A DNA stretch of 8,794 nucleotides from contig JAAZBR010000113.1 of the NCBI GenBank assembly GCA_012513735.1, positions 1 to 8,794 on the forward strand, given 5' to 3'. Each line of letters starts with the position of its first letter. Position 1 is the first letter of the stretch. Both the position numbers and the translations under genes were made by a program. The DNA comes from Clostridiales bacterium. Its GTDB lineage: Bacteria; Bacillota; Clostridia; Christensenellales; Aristaeellaceae. Under the pieces are notes generated by a model, which was given only the letters and a program-made list of their open reading frames with translations, made no database searches and was not told the origin of the DNA. Of the stretch, positions 1,152 through 8,067 are shown in pieces.

Positions 1152-1187
1152 GCAGATGCCCGGCCAAGCGCCGGGCATCTGCCTTCC
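1152..1187 (+). terminator. Hairpin after the permease operon, likely terminator
   Basis: A perfect 13-bp stem (GCAGATGCCCGGC at 1152-1164 with its complement at 1170-1182) closes a five-base loop, 17 bp after the permease stop. Only a weak pyrimidine tail (CTTCC) follows, with no true U-tract. It may be an inefficient intrinsic terminator or a 3' mRNA-stabilising hairpin that ends the transporter transcript just before the next promoter. Confidence 0.65.
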
Positions 1188-1190
1188 AAC

Positions 1191-1219
1191 TCGACAGACG
1201 ACGGACATTTGCCTATACT
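1191..1219 (+). promoter_or_regulatory. Sigma-A type promoter for the phosphoesterase operon
   Basis: TCGACA (1191-1196, 5/6 to TTGACA) and TATACT (1214-1219, 5/6 to TATAAT) are separated by exactly 17 bp. They lie immediately after the permease-operon hairpin and 28 bp before the phosphoesterase start codon. This implies that the two genes downstream are transcribed separately from the transporter. Confidence 0.72.
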
Positions 1220-1247
1220 TAGGATAGGTATCTGAAAGGAGGAGCAC

Positions 1248-1949
1248 ATGATCAGCCTGCGTGCCCTGGTGGTAGCAGATCAGGAGAGCAAGTTCATTTG
1301 GGAGCACTTTGACAGGTCCCGCTTCCGGGGAATTGATGTCATTGTTTCCTGCGGCGATCTGAAGGCCAGCTACCTCTCCTTCTTAACCACCATGGTGGCA
1401 GCCCCGCTTTTGTATGTGCCAGGCAACCATGATGCTGCCTATCTGCACGAGCCGCCGGAAGGCTGCGAGGATTTAACGAACCGTATGGTAACCATCAAGG
1501 GGGTGCGCTTTATCGGCTTCGGCGGCGCTAACAGCAGCACCCCGCAGCCCTTTCACTACACCGAGCGCGAGGTCGCCCGCAGGGTTGCGCGGCGCATCCC
1601 GGAGATTTGTACCCACGGCGGCTTTGACGTGCTGGTTACCCATGCGCCCCCCCTGGGGATCGGGGATGGGGAAGACCGATTTCACAAGGGGTTTGGCGCC
1701 TATAATGCGCTGCTGAAGCAGTTCCAGCCTCGCTACCACCTCCATGGGCATCAACACATGAACTACAAAGGCGCAACTAAGCACAGCGTGTACGGGCAGA
1801 CACAGATCATCAATGGTTACGGGTACCATATTATGGAACTTGTGGTGCCCCGCAGGAAGCCCGCCCGCCTCTCCTACATCAAAACCCGTTATGAATGGGG
1901 GAAGATTTATGCAGGACAATTATCAGCAGCAAGCCCGGCAGGCCTATGA
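1248..1949 (+). CDS. Calcineurin-like metallophosphoesterase (DxE variant)
   Basis: This 233-residue, probably cytoplasmic protein has no signal peptide or membrane helix. The metallophosphoesterase motifs occur in order: D11-Q-E13 (motif I, normally DxH), G36-D37 (motif II), G59-N-H-D62 (motif III), T131-H132 (motif IV) and H166-G-H168-Q-H170 (motif V). All expected ligands of a two-metal centre are present except that Glu replaces the usual His in motif I. From memory, clostridial relatives carry ADEES-type sequences here, so the change looks like a subfamily trait rather than damage. The reaction would be hydrolysis of a phosphomonoester or phosphodiester, but the substrate is unknown. AAAGGAGG at 1235-1242 fixes the ATG. 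The last 41 nt overlap the start of the next gene in a different frame, suggesting coupled translation and a shared job. Confidence 0.85.
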   Translation: MISLRALVVADQESKFIWEHFDRSRFRGIDVIVSCGDLKASYLSFLTTMVAAPLLYVPGNHDAAYLHEPPEGCEDLTNRMVTIKGVRFIGFGGANSSTPQPFHYTEREVARRVARRIPEICTHGGFDVLVTHAPPLGIGDGEDRFHKGFGAYNALLKQFQPRYHLHGHQHMNYKGATKHSVYGQTQIINGYGYHIMELVVPRRKPARLSYIKTRYEWGKIYAGQLSAASPAGL

Positions 1950-3804
1950 CCGCGCCTGGCGCCGGGGCCAGAAAGAATACAGCACCCTGACCGCCCGGGG
2001 GGAGAGAGGCAACCTCCTTGTGCTGGATGAATTGACGGAGGAAGGCCGTATCATGGCCTATATCCGCCAACCCACCCGCGAGATTTCGCTGCGCCAGGTG
2101 GCGGGCACCTACACGGCGGCCCGCGCCCGCTCCTTCAGCGCCAGTTTCATGCCACTGCACCCAGCTATCAGTGAATTTGGCAGCAAGTGGATCAGCCTGT
2201 GTTCGGCACATATGAATGAAGGCCTGCGTGACCCGATCCAGGTGTATGAGTACCTGTGGCAGTATTACGTGGTGGAGGGCAACAAGCGGGTCAGCGTGCT
2301 CAAGTATTTTGATGCGGCGACTGTACGCGCTGAGATCACCCGCCTGGTGCCCCAGATGGACCCGGAGGACCCGCAGACTGCCATCTACCATGCCTTCCTG
2401 CGCTATGACAAGGAGGGTTTGTTCCGGGATATTCGCCTCAACTCTGCCGAACGCTATCAGATGCTGCTCGACACAGAGCAGCACCTGCTGAGCCAGCTGC
2501 CCCCGGGAACAGAGAAGCCCAATTTTAACGCCATGTTTCTGCGCTTTGAGAGCGCCTATATGCGCGCTGGCGGCAGCCAGGCGTTGGGAGACGCGTTTTT
2601 CGACTACCTGCACGTGTTTGGGTTCCCCCTGGATGTTTCCTCCGACGAGCTGGTGGCCCGGATCGTCAAGCTGGTGCCCCAGCTTGTGCTGGCTAGTCAC
2701 CTGGACAAGCAGCCTACGCTGTTGCTGGACGCCCAGCAGGAACTGCCCCAGCCCAGCCTGGTGACGCGACTGTTTGGTGGCAAGCGCACAGCCAAGGTGG
2801 TGTTTGCCTATGCTCAGGGGAGGACGGAGAACAACTGGATTGGCGCCCATGAGAAGGGTCGCCTGCAAATGCAGCAGCAGTTGCAGGACAGCGTCACCAG
2901 TACCTGCATCGACGGCCTGACGCCTGAGAACGCCTATGAGCGGCTGAGCGAGCAGGCCAAAGGGCAGGACCTGCTGTTGGTCACCTCCTCACAGCTGGCC
3001 CCCGCCGCCCTACGGTTTTCACTGGAGAACCCCGATTGCCTGACGCTGGTTTATTCCCGTGCCCGGCAGGATTACCGCCTGAACACCTATTATGGTCGCT
3101 ACTATGAGCCTGTTTTCCTGTGTGGTGTGGCGGCCGGGTTGGGCACGAAAAGCGGCAAGGTGGCCTATGTGACGCCCCATGTGACGAGGGTGCGTCATAC
3201 GGCCGATATCAATGCCTTCGCCCTGGGAGTGCGCAGCGTGCGGGCATATGCGGAAGTTTATCTGGTGATGCGCGGGTTCAGTCCGGAGCAGCCCGCCTCC
3301 TGCGAACAGGGGATCCGACAGGCGGTGGAGCTGGGGTGCGACATTGGCCTGACACCGGATTATCCGGGGCTCAGCATGATCGGTACCCCCGAGGGCGCTT
3401 TCTCGTTCCTGTTGCGGCTGCACGGCATGGGCAAGCCTTCGGAGTACTTGGCTGCGCCCGCCTGGCTGTGGGGTCGGTATTACACGCAAATCGTAGAAGG
3501 TTACCTGAGTGGCAGCCTCGACTTCCTGCGCGATCTGGACAATCGGGAACCTACGGTTACCGGCTTCTGGTGGGGGCTGGGTGCCGGGGTGCTGGAGTTT
3601 AAATCCACGTCTTTCCTGCCGCCCATAGCCAACAACCTGATGCACTTTATTCGCAGCAGCATACAGCTTGGCCGTTTCAACCCCTTTCGCGGCCCCATTA
3701 CCGATAGCGAAGGAGTTTTGCGTGTCAACTCTCATGCGGAGCTGAAGCCCTATGACATCCTGAGCATGCAGTGGCTGGTGGATTTTGTCCGGGTGATTGA
3801 TTGA
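1909..3804 (+). CDS. ParB-like/BMP (PnrA-type) fusion protein without signal peptide
   Basis: This is a 631-residue protein of unknown function. The N-terminal part contains residues 105-148 (G-LRDPIQVYEYLWQ, then YYVVEGNKRVSVLKYF at 119-134), which resembles the ParB/Srx superfamily, where a partner-sequence motif of the type GERRxxA follows a 'value' strand; GNKRVSVLK would be that motif. Residues 149-294 are mostly helical in character. From residue 295 (AKVVFAYAQG) to the end the protein reads as a BMP/Med/PnrA nucleoside-binding-protein fold: an N392-T-YYGRYYEP-FL-G-AAG segment, GKVAYV, DINAFALGVRS, and near the C-terminus GPITDSEGVLRV, matching the BMP 'GPIKDxxGKV' ending. BMP proteins are normally lipoproteins feeding nucleoside importers; here there is no signal peptide or lipobox, so it should be cytoplasmic. 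The start at 1909 has GGGGGAAG at 1897-1904 and removes a 32-residue implausible extension. I recall similar clostridial proteins annotated only as BMP-family. The N-terminal assignment is the less certain half. Confidence 0.78.
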   Translation: MQDNYQQQARQAYDRAWRRGQKEYSTLTARGERGNLLVLDELTEEGRIMAYIRQPTREISLRQVAGTYTAARARSFSASFMPLHPAISEFGSKWISLCSAHMNEGLRDPIQVYEYLWQYYVVEGNKRVSVLKYFDAATVRAEITRLVPQMDPEDPQTAIYHAFLRYDKEGLFRDIRLNSAERYQMLLDTEQHLLSQLPPGTEKPNFNAMFLRFESAYMRAGGSQALGDAFFDYLHVFGFPLDVSSDELVARIVKLVPQLVLASHLDKQPTLLLDAQQELPQPSLVTRLFGGKRTAKVVFAYAQGRTENNWIGAHEKGRLQMQQQLQDSVTSTCIDGLTPENAYERLSEQAKGQDLLLVTSSQLAPAALRFSLENPDCLTLVYSRARQDYRLNTYYGRYYEPVFLCGVAAGLGTKSGKVAYVTPHVTRVRHTADINAFALGVRSVRAYAEVYLVMRGFSPEQPASCEQGIRQAVELGCDIGLTPDYPGLSMIGTPEGAFSFLLRLHGMGKPSEYLAAPAWLWGRYYTQIVEGYLSGSLDFLRDLDNREPTVTGFWWGLGAGVLEFKSTSFLPPIANNLMHFIRSSIQLGRFNPFRGPITDSEGVLRVNSHAELKPYDILSMQWLVDFVRVID

Positions 3805-3831: not shown

Positions 3832-3873
3832 GAGGGACTGCCGCATTGTGTTTACGGCAGTCCCTCTGCTTTT
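3832..3873. terminator. Intrinsic terminator between convergent genes
   Basis: A 12-bp perfect stem (GAGGGACTGCCG at 3832-3843 with its complement at 3855-3866) has an 11-base loop and is followed on the plus strand by TGCTTTT. It ends the phosphoesterase/BMP transcript. Because thrS converges from the other side and ends at 3893, the same hairpin can serve as its terminator; on the minus strand it is followed by ATTATTATCTT, a weaker U-rich tail. Confidence 0.85.
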
Positions 3874-3892: not shown

Positions 3893-5818
3893 TCACACCT
3901 CCCAATTCCGCTCCAGCGCCCGGGTCTTGTCCTCGTGCAGCAGCTTCTCAATCAACACATCCTGCGCCATTACGCCCAAAGTTTCTCCCTTGCGGGTGCG
4001 TACGGATACGGTGTCCTCCTGGGCCTCCCGGTCGCCGATCACCAGCATGTAGGGGATCTTCTGCATCTGGGCCTCCCGCACCTTGAAGCCGATTTTCTCG
4101 TTGCGCAGGTCGATCTCTGTGCGCAGCCCGGCGTCCTCCATCTTGATGCGCAGGCCTTTGACAGCTTCGTCTGCGCGCTCGGTGATGGTCATGATTCGGG
4201 CCTGCACGGGTGCCAGCCACACGGGGAAGGCACCGGCAAAGTGCTCGGTGAGGATGCCGATAAAGCGCTCCATGGAGCCCAGCACTGTGCGGTGGATCAT
4301 CACGGGGCGATGCTTCTCACCATCGGGGCCCACATACTCCATATCAAAGCGCTCGGGCAGGTTCATATCAAGTTGCAGGGTACCGCACTGCCAGCTGCGG
4401 CCCAGGCTATCCTGCAGGTGGAAGTCAATCTTGGGACCGTAGAAGGCGCCATCTCCCGGATTGATGGTGTAGGGCACGCCTAGCTCCTCCAGGGCATCCT
4501 GCAGGGCCTTGGTGGACAGCTCCCACATTGCGTCCGTACCGATGGTGTTTTCCTCAGGGCGGGTAGACAGCTCCACCTTGTACTGGAAGCCAAAGTCTTT
4601 GTACACTTGGTCGTCCAGCTTGTACACGCCGATGATTTCGTTCTTGATCTGATCAGGCGTCATGTACAGGTGGGCATCGTCCTGGGTGAAGGAACGCACA
4701 CGCATCAGTCCGTGCAGAGCGCCTGACTTCTCGTGGCGATGCACCAGGCCCAGCTCGGCCACCCGCAGGGGCAGGTCGCGGTAGCTCCACATGCGGCGCT
4801 TGTAGGCCAGAATGCCGCCGGGGCAGTTCATGGGCTTGATGGCATAATCCTCATCGTCGATCTTCAGGGTGTACATGTTGTCCCGGTAGTTTTCCCAGTG
4901 GCCGCTTTGCTCCCACAGGGATCGGGACAGGATGATGGGCGTCTTGATCTCCTCATAGCCGGCCTTGCGGTGCAGCTCTCGCCAGTAGTTTTCCAGGGTG
5001 TTCCTCAGTACCATGCCCTTGGCATAGAAGAAGGGAAAACCGGGGCCCTCATTCATCAAGTCAAACAGATCCAGCTCGCGACCCAGCTTGCGGTGGTCGC
5101 GCTTCTTGGCCTCCTCCAGTTGGAACAAGTAAGCTTCCAACGACTCCTTATCCATGAAGGCCGTGCCGTAGATGCGCTGCAGCATCTTGTTTTTTTCATT
5201 GCCGCGCCAGTAGGCGCCGGCCACGCTGGTCAGCTTGAACGCCTTGATACGCCCGGTGCTGGGCAGGTGGGGGCCGGCACACAGGTCAAGGAAGTCCTCC
5301 CCCTGGCGATAGAAGCTGATTTCCTCATCCGGGGGTAGGTCGCGAATCAGCTCTACCTTGTAGGGCTCCTCCCGCTGCTCCATCAGGGTAATAGCCTCCT
5401 CCCGGGGCAGTACAAAACGCTCCTCTCGGTCATTCTTCTTGATGATGCGGCCCATCTCTTTTTCAATCTGTTCAAGTACGTCGGGGGTGAAGGGCTCGGG
5501 CACATCAAAATCGTAGTAAAAGCCGTTTTCAATGGCGGGGCCGATGGCCAGTTTGGCCTCCGGCACCACCTTTTTGACGGCTGCAGCCAACACATGGGAA
5601 GCTGTATGACGCAGCACATGGCGCGCCTCGTCACTGTCAAAGGTCAGAAATTCCAGTGTACCGTCCTCCTCAAGCGGCTGCGCAAGTTCCACCAACTTCC
5701 CGTTGAGGCGGGCGGCAATGGCAGCCTTCTTGATGTCCCCCTCTTGTTCCCGGAGGATATCCAGGGCATTGATGCCCTTTTCATATTCCTTGGTTTGTCC
5801 CTTCAGCTTGATAGACAT
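3893..5818 (-). CDS. thrS: Threonyl-tRNA synthetase
   Basis: This class II synthetase charges tRNA-Thr with threonine in the cytoplasm. The 641 residues match the usual length of about 640. Domains in order: TGS domain (about 1-60); editing domain with H71-TAS-H75 and C180-AGPH, the site that clears mischarged serine; catalytic core with the zinc ligands C332 (NCPGG), H383 (DDAHLY) and H509 (MIHRTVLGSMERF), close to E. coli C334/H385/H511; motif 2 around HRHEKSGALHG; and motif 3 with the RTVLGSMERF helix. A C-terminal anticodon-binding domain starts near FPVWLAPVQ. All catalytic and editing residues seem intact. The start at 5818 has GAAAGGAA at 5832-5825 with a six-base spacer. An in-frame ATG at 5866 is rejected because it lies inside the leader terminator. 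Expression is controlled by the T-box leader upstream. Confidence 0.98.
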   Translation of the reverse strand: MSIKLKGQTKEYEKGINALDILREQEGDIKKAAIAARLNGKLVELAQPLEEDGTLEFLTFDSDEARHVLRHTASHVLAAAVKKVVPEAKLAIGPAIENGFYYDFDVPEPFTPDVLEQIEKEMGRIIKKNDREERFVLPREEAITLMEQREEPYKVELIRDLPPDEEISFYRQGEDFLDLCAGPHLPSTGRIKAFKLTSVAGAYWRGNEKNKMLQRIYGTAFMDKESLEAYLFQLEEAKKRDHRKLGRELDLFDLMNEGPGFPFFYAKGMVLRNTLENYWRELHRKAGYEEIKTPIILSRSLWEQSGHWENYRDNMYTLKIDDEDYAIKPMNCPGGILAYKRRMWSYRDLPLRVAELGLVHRHEKSGALHGLMRVRSFTQDDAHLYMTPDQIKNEIIGVYKLDDQVYKDFGFQYKVELSTRPEENTIGTDAMWELSTKALQDALEELGVPYTINPGDGAFYGPKIDFHLQDSLGRSWQCGTLQLDMNLPERFDMEYVGPDGEKHRPVMIHRTVLGSMERFIGILTEHFAGAFPVWLAPVQARIMTITERADEAVKGLRIKMEDAGLRTEIDLRNEKIGFKVREAQMQKIPYMLVIGDREAQEDTVSVRTRKGETLGVMAQDVLIEKLLHEDKTRALERNWEV

Positions 5819-5853
5819 TTTCGATTCCTTTCTTGGCTGTTGATCTTTCCTGC

Positions 5854-5888
5854 AAATAAAAAGCATCCGTCCTGTGAGGGACGAATGC
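5854..5888 (-). terminator. T-box regulated intrinsic terminator in the thrS leader
   Basis: On the minus strand GCATTCGTCC (5888-5879) pairs with GGACGGATGC (5872-5863), 10 bp with one G-U, across a six-base loop, followed by TTTTTATTT (5862-5854). The 5' arm and loop include GTCCCT, which can instead pair with the AGGG side of the T-box to form the antiterminator. Without bound uncharged tRNA-Thr this hairpin stops transcription 35 bp before the thrS start codon. Confidence 0.92.
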
Positions 5889-6139: not shown

Positions 6140-6895
6140 TCAGATCTCTTTGGCCAGCCACCGCACAATATTGTGCCACAGCGATGTGTAGGAGGGGCTT
6201 GTGCAAAACTCAGCAGAAGCCCAGTGTGGGGCCAGGTCGCTGGCCCAGGCAACAGATCGACCCTGCCCGAACTGACCTACGGCCAGCAGGGGATCGTTTT
6301 CATAGGCCACTAGGGTCTGGCAACCCTCCTTCAGCCGGGCTCTGTTGTAGCCCAGCAGGCTCAGCGGCCCTGTTATGCCCTTTAACAGGGGGTGCTGGCT
6401 TCCCTGCACCTCTACGTCAATACCCTCCGGGTGCTCCTGCCGGTCATCATGGGGCAGGAAATCCACCGGCAATACGGTTTCCAAAATGCTGCCGTAATAT
6501 TTTCCCTTGCCCTCCATGCCCATGAAGGTTAGGTAGCCACCGGCCATACACAGACCGCCGCCCTGCAACACATAGTCCTTGAGAATCTGCAGCTTGTTGG
6601 GGCTGCGTTTACATTCCACAAAGGTTTCCATGGGCAGCAGAAAGGTATTGGCGCCCACGTCGCTGATGATGATGGCATCGTACTGTTTCAACCCTTCGGC
6701 GCTGTGAGGAAAATCCAGCCCGATCCGGTGGCTGGGCATGTGATGGAAGGAAAAACCGTCCGTGGACAGGACTTTCTCAATGTACTCCGTACCTACCCCA
6801 TAGCTGTCAAAGGTGAATACATCATAGCCCTTTGCTTCCACCGTATGGATCATCCAGGATTCTCCGATCAGCAGCGTGCGCAGCGTTTTGCCCAT
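6140..6895 (-). CDS. GATase1-like (DUF1355-type) protein
   Basis: This 251-residue, probably cytoplasmic protein resembles the 'putative glutamine amidotransferase' family once called DUF1355, which has a class I glutamine-amidotransferase-like alpha/beta fold. Visible family features are GESWMIH near the N-terminus, the Y-IEKVL-G--HMPSHR segment (about 38-57), YDAIIISDVGANTFLL (72-87), the elbow region GGGLCMAGGYLTF (112-124) and a C-terminal GRSVAWASDLAPHW with LWHNIVRWL. Real amidotransferases have G-x-C-x-G-x-Q at the elbow; here it reads G-L-C116-M-A-G-G, so the Cys position is occupied but the context is non-canonical, and no clear His-Glu pair follows. Glutaminase activity is therefore doubtful, and no reaction is established. 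AAGGAGG lies eight bases before the ATG. It is divergent from the ArsR-type regulator, which suggests control by it. In other genomes such genes often lie near sugar-catabolism genes (recollection, not checked). Confidence 0.82.
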   Translation of the reverse strand: MGKTLRTLLIGESWMIHTVEAKGYDVFTFDSYGVGTEYIEKVLSTDGFSFHHMPSHRIGLDFPHSAEGLKQYDAIIISDVGANTFLLPMETFVECKRSPNKLQILKDYVLQGGGLCMAGGYLTFMGMEGKGKYYGSILETVLPVDFLPHDDRQEHPEGIDVEVQGSQHPLLKGITGPLSLLGYNRARLKEGCQTLVAYENDPLLAVGQFGQGRSVAWASDLAPHWASAEFCTSPSYTSLWHNIVRWLAKEI

Positions 6896-7134: not shown

Positions 7135-8067
7135 ATGCTCTATTACCAGTCCCTCCAAGAGGGGTTTCCGTTGTTTAAGGCCCTGGGTTCCCAGACCCGC
7201 ATTGATATCCTGGAGCTGTTGATCAGAAGCGGCCCCATGCGTATGACAAACATTGCCGCCGAAATGGATATTACCGGCGGCGCGCTGACCAGCCACATCA
7301 AGGCACTCAACGATGCGGGCATTATTGCCATTGAGGAGCGCAGCGGCAAACATGGCATCCAGAAGATCTGTCACATTGTGGATGACCGTATTCTGATCGA
7401 TTATCCTGCGGCAGCCGACCGTGGCCTTAGCCACCGGCTGACAGTCGCCTTGGGCGACTATGCCCGATGCGAAGCCACCGCTCCTTGTGGCCTGGCCACG
7501 GCGGAGCATGCGCTGGAACCCCAGAATGACCCGGCGGTGTTTGACCATGAGTTTCGCAGCCAGGCCGGTTTGCTTTGGCTGGCTGAGGGCACGCTGGAGT
7601 ACTGTTTGCCAAATCCTTTGAAGACAGAAGATGACCCAACCGAGCTGCAGCTCATCCTGGAGCTGGCGGCCGGAACGCCCAGCGCGCCTGCGATGACAGC
7701 GGGCAGCGTGCTGCTTTCCATCAACGACAAGGAGATTGGCAATGTGGAGCTGCCCCTGTTGAAGGGCAAGCTGGGCAACAATACCAAGGCTGTCAACTGG
7801 CGTAAGGGAAGCGGCCTACAGCGGGGCGCCAGCAAGATCGTTCGTATAGACAAGGGGGCCAGTTATCAGGACGGGCATGTGCTATCCGGCGTTAAGCTGA
7901 GCGACCTGAAGCTGGCCGGCGATGAGGAAATCCGCATCAAGCTGCAGGTGTCCGCAGATGGCCCCGGCATGCTGATGTTTGGCCAGGAATACGGCCAGCG
8001 GGAGGAGGGCCTGTCCCTCATGCTGCGGTACAATACCAAGAAGCGCCGCAACACCAAAAAGACCTGA
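7135..8067 (+). CDS. ArsR-type winged-helix regulator with large C-terminal domain
   Basis: This 310-residue DNA-binding protein has an N-terminal winged helix (about 8-80): FKALGSQTRIDILELL is the typical ArsR first helix, MTNIAAEMDITGGALTSHIKAL (37-58) is the helix-turn-helix, and a wing runs to about residue 79. ArsR proteins are usually about 100 residues; here some 230 more follow, including P117-C-G-L-A and a later part rich in beta-strand-like segments (LWLAEGTLEYCLPNPL, LQLILELAAGTPSAPA, INDKEIGNVELPLL). I recall clostridial regulators with the same CGLA and 'ELASEAPG' pattern; their C-terminal region may be a beta-sandwich effector domain for a sugar or glycoside, though this is inference. 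No metal-binding CxC typical of ArsR metal sensors is seen. AAGGA at 7124-7128 supports the start. It is divergent from the GATase1-like gene, its most likely target along with itself. Confidence 0.85.
   Translation: MLYYQSLQEGFPLFKALGSQTRIDILELLIRSGPMRMTNIAAEMDITGGALTSHIKALNDAGIIAIEERSGKHGIQKICHIVDDRILIDYPAAADRGLSHRLTVALGDYARCEATAPCGLATAEHALEPQNDPAVFDHEFRSQAGLLWLAEGTLEYCLPNPLKTEDDPTELQLILELAAGTPSAPAMTAGSVLLSINDKEIGNVELPLLKGKLGNNTKAVNWRKGSGLQRGASKIVRIDKGASYQDGHVLSGVKLSDLKLAGDEEIRIKLQVSADGPGMLMFGQEYGQREEGLSLMLRYNTKKRRNTKKT

Follow-up and report, generated by a model that had tools for sequence, protein, structure and literature searches.

The BMP fold is known outside the cell as a nutrient catcher, and this locus raises the question of what such a fold does in a protein that very likely never leaves the cytosol. 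The window, by which we mean the whole 8,794-nucleotide stretch analysed here (contig JAAZBR010000113.1 of a Clostridiales bacterium), encodes a metallophosphoesterase (MPE) and, overlapping its end, a 631-residue protein in which a BMP domain is fused to an N-terminal part with a predicted ParB/sulfiredoxin (Srx) fold (Table 1). We propose that the fusion is a cytosolic, ligand-gated nucleotide switch controlling the adjoining MPE, a reading to which we assign a probability of roughly 0.5. It is drawn from the lack of an export signal, the predicted nucleotide-binding fold and the near-constant MPE neighbour, each of which is considered here in turn.

The original prediction, made from the letters of the DNA, had seen in the C-terminal half the layout of BMP/PnrA lipoproteins and had remarked on the missing signal peptide and lipobox, and both observations held. 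Pfam PF02608 reaches 28.6 bits against a cut-off of 24.1, and the match to the purine-binding lipoprotein AtzT has an E value of 5.4e-22. With one pattern applied to fusions and lipoproteins alike, a lipobox or strongly hydrophobic N-terminal stretch was found in none of 104 family members, whereas all 15 BMP lipoproteins compared have both, which makes a cytosolic location of the fusion very likely. Of these family members P0025 alone contains a hydrophobic 19-mer, at some point along its length. A secretion signal upstream of the chosen start, which had been named as one of two findings that would undo the idea, was looked for in the 104 homologues and found in none of them; the 62 homologues at 48–90% identity mostly start at the same place and are of about equal length.

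Database names tell a different story. Among the matches listed they are mostly ‘BMP family ABC transporter substrate-binding protein’, ‘basic membrane protein A’ and ‘basic membrane lipoprotein Med’, with P0055 and P0071 named ‘hypothetical protein’. The BMP domain itself, and in the window a sugar-type permease gene upstream, would fit a substrate-binding protein of an ABC transporter, but the absent export signals, the 290-residue N-terminal extension with its ParB/Srx fold, and the hairpin and promoter-like site that separate the fusion unit from the permease all speak against it. Nor is a transporter gene a regular neighbour across the 43 loci compared (the window, L002, L003 and 40 further regions), where neighbour clustering places no gene family other than the MPE in more than 12. 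We therefore give the substrate-binding identification next to no credence, reject a transporter component for want of an export signal and of a regular transporter neighbour, and regard the transporter annotation of the family as very likely wrong.

The N-terminal part had been called ParB/Srx-like from its EGNKR segment, and residues 100-150 do fall within the ParB/Srx fold modelled for residues 52-150. This is the most conserved region of the protein, with 24 of 99 columns at or above 95% as compared with 28 of 340 in the BMP domain. Across the 104 family sequences E123, K126 and R127 never vary in this region, and 103 retain G124 and N125. Foldseek returns Noc and KorB as the best matches of the N-terminal model, and hhalign places the GNKR of the fusion on the GERR of ParB. 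By predicted structure and motif, then, the fusion belongs to the ParB/Srx fold group and not to the ParB/Noc partition proteins, and we infer that it binds a nucleoside triphosphate (NTP) through G-N-K-R in the manner of a GxxR motif. Replacing the arginine of GxxR by alanine abolishes NTP binding in ParB-fold fusions, according to the main text of a 2025 survey of the fold (PMC12704722). A canonical ParB was considered and rejected, the fusion being without the helix-turn-helix and C-terminal domain: PF17762 and PF23552, the profiles for ParB helix-turn-helix and C-terminal dimerisation, find no match in it, and the canonical ParB of L002 matches both.

A near-constant neighbour is the third element of the argument. 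Full-length relatives of the fusion were found in 39 of 391 genomes of the class, taken to be Clostridia from the names of homologues, at 41 places, and the MPE adjoins the fusion in 38 of the 43 loci, mostly overlapping it (as in the window, L002 and L033) or within about 130 bases, with a gap of 458 in L057. The MPE lies upstream on the same strand in 3 loci including the window, downstream and convergent in 20, and downstream on the same strand in 15. A tree of the 38 fusions calls for 3 changes of arrangement (the least possible is 2, and one of the 3 rests on L057 alone), so that the neighbourhood has been reshuffled without parting the pair. Five loci are without an adjacent MPE: L003 and L051 stop at a contig end, L049 has its MPE on another contig, and L071 and L072 hold second copies. 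The latter two are divergent ParB/Srx-BMP proteins, in genomes that also carry a normal pair. Counted over the 391 genomes, with kinship ignored, 38 have both genes, 1 has the fusion only (G101, at a contig end), 3 have the MPE only and 349 have neither.

Other neighbours are more sporadic. A gene of one sequence cluster, identified as DUF402 where it was scanned (L045, 9375-9866), immediately precedes the fusion in nine loci, and DUF402 proteins include nucleotide phosphatases. SPFH/Band 7 genes follow the fusion in L002 (8870-9913) and L003 (1686-2666). In L002 (4431-5267) and L033 (11272-12039), both relatives of the window's lineage, the pair stands directly downstream of parA-parB, an arrangement not seen in the window. 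A role in chromosome segregation was considered and rejected, as the parAB neighbourhood is confined to these two of the 43 loci.

The fusion family is large and mostly, though perhaps not exclusively, clostridial. In protein searches that each counted among about 8,000 candidates and listed 120 matches, homologues numbered at least 1,297 at E ≤ 1e-5 and, in separate searches, at least 4,346 and at least 7,954 at E ≤ 1e-30. The 120 matches listed in the last of these are 641-666 residues long, and the genera among the matches listed include Lacrimispora, Hungatella, Lachnoclostridium and Thermoclostridium. The family may reach beyond the Clostridia because P0071 is named from a Candidatus Limnocylindria assembly. 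Among 299 genomes drawn from the phylum, no full-length fusion outside the class was found at E ≤ 1e-30; the other 7 matches were to the BMP part only. A profile of the N-terminal part found 42 places in the 391 genomes of the class, 41 of which are fusions; the remaining one (L150:3842-4969) encodes a different, 375-residue ParB/Srx-like protein with a VEGKHR motif (E 3e-9).

The MPE appears to have an intact metal site. It scores 32.6 bits with Pfam PF00149 (cut-off 21.5) and has the motifs D11-x-E13, G36-D37, G59-N60-H61-D62, H132 and G167-H168-x-H170, of which D11, D37, N60, H61, H132, H168 and H170 are complete in all 38 MPEs of the class and in 15 from outside it. Most calcineurin-like MPEs, though not every one, have a histidine in their first motif (D-x-H). 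Here the position is Glu in 37 of 38 and Pro in 1, and never His; in the 15 outside the class it is Glu in 7, Val in 5, Ile in 2 and Arg in 1. That the substrate may be a phosphodiester is no more than a hint, taken from profiles of the lariat debranching enzyme (E 3.5e-5) and of MPPED2 (E 1.2e-4), which each match the MPE in part. None of three MPEs scanned reached the cut-off of a curated NCBIfam model. Phage defence stays a lead, on a match of the MPE to PDC-S10, a candidate model of PADLOC (E 1.1e-18); fusion residues 108-137 match PDC-M38A very weakly (E 0.0079).

An indication of what is constant in the pair comes from the rest of the phylum, where the MPE was found in 15 genomes outside the class and in 13 of these adjoins a ParB/Srx protein that has no BMP domain. 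Twelve of the 13 are matched by fusions in tblastn, with best E values per locus from 8e-16 to 6e-9; the thirteenth (L154, 208 residues) rests on alignment and on a Pfam ParBc_2 match below the cut-off (E 7.6e-4). Aligned by hhalign with the N-terminal part of the fusion, the BMP-less proteins give a probability of 99.2 and an E value of 1.2e-19 over 204 columns, and a profile made from them finds the fusions in all five fusion-bearing genomes searched (E 1.4e-14 to 5.4e-9). DUF4032 matches the helical region in five of the seven BMP-less proteins scanned, in two over the cut-off. Their C-terminal ends differ: Fer4 is over the cut-off in four of the seven (L160, L161, L166 and L167) and absent in L154, L157 and L158. 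Among 12 aligned, two full four-cysteine motifs are present in L160, L161, L164, L165 and L166 and one in L167, and the group of L155, L157, L158, L159 and L163 has four cysteines in all. Because the same MPE stands beside homologous BMP-less proteins with iron-sulphur (Fe-S) or short tails, the conserved core is the MPE together with the ParB/Srx-helical part, and the C-terminal domain is open to exchange, being BMP in the class and Fe-S or a short tail outside it.

What the BMP domain might bind is a separate matter. Guanine contacts of AtzT, as published (PMC6834077), were mapped onto 51 fusions and, for comparison, onto 15 BMP lipoproteins of the class. Trp occupies the stacking position in all 51 fusions, including the 12 of the window's clade. 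All 15 lipoproteins keep Ser97, Glu165 and Trp194 and have His for Asn218 and Asp for Asn220. The equivalents of these two asparagines are also replaced in 12 of 12 proteins of the window's clade, a loss that says little because the lipoproteins share it. Within that clade 8 of 12 keep the Ser97 equivalent, and all 12 have Arg429 and Asp433. The other 39 fusions have Gly (14), Asp (13), Glu (10) or Thr (2) at position 165; Trp194 is kept in 15 of them and both Glu165 and Trp194 in 8. With contact residues kept or replaced by clade, some clades may plausibly bind purines, whereas purine binding by that of the window is doubtful or altered, and some form of ligand binding by the domain is plausible. 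The suggestion of an intracellular nucleoside or nucleotide sensor thus survives in part: internal use is probable, there being no export signal, and nucleoside sensing is not established, several guanine contacts having been replaced in the window's clade while the stacking Trp was kept.

A number of results weigh against the switch. As regards the fold, hhalign aligns the N-terminal part only modestly with eight ParB sequences (E 0.007, listed probability 5.4), Pfam ParB_N matches no more than 2 of 19 N-termini, at best with E 0.007, and among 25 genomes it was found in one fusion, at 17.9 bits against a cut-off of 26.3. The profile search that had been suggested for both domains recovered BMP in the window's fusion; PF02195 (ParB_N), which helps to detect the fold but does not define it, has no match there and is weak in a few relatives. 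Of 28 purified ParB-fold proteins 17 bound no NTP, as reported in the survey's main text, where NTP specificity is also described as unpredictable from sequence (PMC12704722), and the fold alone is therefore no proof of NTP binding. In the pocket, the Glu165 equivalent is Arg429 and the equivalents of Phe98 and Trp194 are replaced in 12 of 12 proteins of the window's clade. The pairing too has gaps, in that three genomes of the class have an MPE without a fusion (G080, G214 and G238), G172 has the two on different contigs, and 2 of the 15 outside-class MPE loci have no adjoining ParB/Srx gene. For one of these (G406, the fourteenth genome) a ParB/Srx match lies on another contig in a frame of 127 residues (E 3.9e-36), and for the other (G391) no match was found anywhere in the genome.

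On the switch model, to which we commit, a working mechanism can be sketched. The C-terminal domain would sense the state of the cell, a metabolite in the case of BMP and redox or iron in the case of Fe-S. The BMP clamshell would close on a small metabolite, whose nature probably varies, being purine-like in some clades and different in that of the window, and closure would alter the nucleotide state of the ParB/Srx domain, which would hold an NTP through G-N-K-R. That state would in turn, through direct contact, turn the MPE on or off; the enzyme may act on a nucleotide or a phosphodiester. On a wider and more tentative view, the pair would represent a signalling module of two genes, so far undescribed, in Clostridia and related classes, in which an NTP switch drives a dedicated MPE and the inputs are interchangeable, be it a captured nucleobase-type BMP receptor or 2[4Fe-4S] redox clusters.

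The main rival to this switch model is a kinase-phosphatase pair, with the ParB/Srx domain a small-molecule kinase like SerK or SbnI, the BMP domain presenting or sensing its substrate and the MPE removing the phosphate. The catalytic glutamate of SerK is E30, and mutants of it are named in the PDB titles of the SerK fold matches; however, no residue of the fusion was matched to this glutamate, and Fe-S in place of BMP suits sensing better than substrate presentation, and so we hold the pair of enzymes to be unlikely. It could also be that the BMP domain has become a scaffold that no longer binds ligand, leaving an unregulated ParB/Srx partner of the MPE. Polar contact positions that vary by clade, and the AtzT contacts lost in the window's clade, are what one would cite for this, but Trp310 is kept throughout the family and Arg429 and Asp433 in all 12 compared of the clade, which suggests a pocket altered rather than decayed; we find a mere scaffold improbable. 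A DNA-linked regulator of the ParB/Noc type, with the ParB fold and helical region on DNA or the chromosome and the BMP domain sensing an effector as in LacI-type proteins, seems to us more of a long shot. It draws on the Noc and KorB matches, on LacI/PurR-type regulators among the fold matches of the full model, and on the parA-parB neighbourhood in L002 and L033; the ParB helix-turn-helix profile finds nothing in the fusion.

Returning to the window, the two genes are likely one transcription unit, which we infer from their overlap on the same strand, the AGGAGG ahead of the MPE, the promoter-like site and the flanking hairpins. The upstream hairpin is a possible boundary of the unit and is without a T tract. 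The promoter candidate counts as weak evidence, since the consensus scan gave 3 sites where 1.4 are expected in the scanned region. The downstream hairpin has its T-rich tail on the minus strand and is probably a terminator common to the fusion gene and thrS, in a region where the terminator scan gave 5 sites as compared with 2.6 expected.

Table 1. Features of the window and, in the last row, partner proteins at loci outside the class.
Feature	Position	Strand	Basis or remark
Sugar-type ABC permease gene	ends 1134		precedes the two-gene unit
Strong hairpin between permease gene and two-gene unit	1152..1182	.	RNAfold of 1145-1200: -28.5 kcal/mol, 13 pairs
Sigma-70-like promoter candidate, TCGACA-17-TATACT	1191..1219	+	consensus scan, 10/12 matches
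Ribosome-binding site of MPE gene, AGGAGG	1237..1242	+	read in sequence
MPE gene, 233 aa	1248..1949	+	Pfam PF00149, conservation, adjacency to fusion
ParB/Srx-BMP fusion gene, 631 aa	1909..3804	+	start overlaps MPE gene end by 41 bases
ParB/sulfiredoxin fold (predicted), residues 52-150	2062..2358	+	AlphaFold2 model, Foldseek, VIA-align
EGNKR, residues 123-127	2275..2289	+	fits GxxR phosphate-binding motif of ParB-type NTP binders
Helical region (modelled), residues 155-268	2371..2712	+	model; up to about residue 239 common to BMP-less partner proteins of other classes (hhalign)
BMP (PnrA/AtzT-type) binding domain, residues 292-631	2782..3801	+	
W310, equivalent of guanine-stacking Tyr45 of AtzT	2836..2838	+	104/104
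R429, at position of guanine-binding Glu165 of AtzT	3193..3195	+	Arg in 65/104 overall
14-pair hairpin between fusion gene and convergent thrS	3832..3866	.	terminator scan, RNAfold
Threonyl-tRNA synthetase-type protein	3893-5866	minus	
GATase1-like protein	6140-6895	minus	
ArsR/MarR-type regulator	7135-8067		
ORF, presumably YicC family	from 8175		resembles YicC-family protein
BMP-less ParB/Srx partner proteins	L161:5653-6645, L166:5642-6655, L160:3957-4901, L157:5597-6598		several with 2[4Fe-4S] ferredoxin ends

Switches run by cytidine triphosphate or other NTPs on the ParB fold are a recent discovery, and to our knowledge their outputs beyond chromosome segregation are mostly unknown. Because a ParB-type fold is combined in this family with a metabolite-receptor fold and with one specific enzyme, the fusion and MPE name a candidate input, switch and output, each of which can be tested. 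Should the switch prove correct, a ParB-type switch would have the BMP fold as its metabolite receptor inside the cell. There is also a practical side: a family of this size is very likely misannotated as a transporter component, and most of it would escape a survey begun with the Pfam ParB profile. The BMP-less ParB/Srx partner proteins outside the class form a separate family.

No description of the fusion/MPE pair was found in listings of the open-licence PMC literature, and the likenesses to known systems are each partial. The MPE shares with calcineurin-like enzymes such as Dbr1, MPPED2 and YfcE the Metallophos domain and departs from them in its first motif, D-x-E in nearly all members of the class and D-x-E/V/I/R outside it. 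With the free serine kinases SerK and SbnI, in which we know of no BMP or Fe-S domain, the fusion shares a fold match, to which one partner protein adds a weak model match; the likeness of the fusion is one of fold only. The BMP/PnrA purine-binding lipoproteins (AtzT, 3s99 and PnrA, and 2hqb, a ComK activator) share the fold and sequence of residues 292-631 and the aromatic stacking position, but the fusion is without their signal peptide, lipobox and ABC transporter neighbours, has its own 290-residue N-terminal part and has replaced several of the guanine contacts of AtzT. ParB-CTPase/sulfiredoxin fold proteins, finally, have in common with it the fold of residues 52-150, a GxxR-type motif and fusion to a partner domain. 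The 2025 survey, whose domain search began from PF02195, covers in its main text ParB, Noc, SerK, Srx and fusions to HNH, CBS, methyltransferases and others, and that text makes no mention of BMP, ferredoxin or phosphoesterase, though its supplementary tables may list a BMP or Fer4 fusion (PMC12704722). The nearest idea to the fusion in that text is an archaeal CBS fusion, in which metabolite sensing is likewise joined to the NTP fold (PMC12704722).

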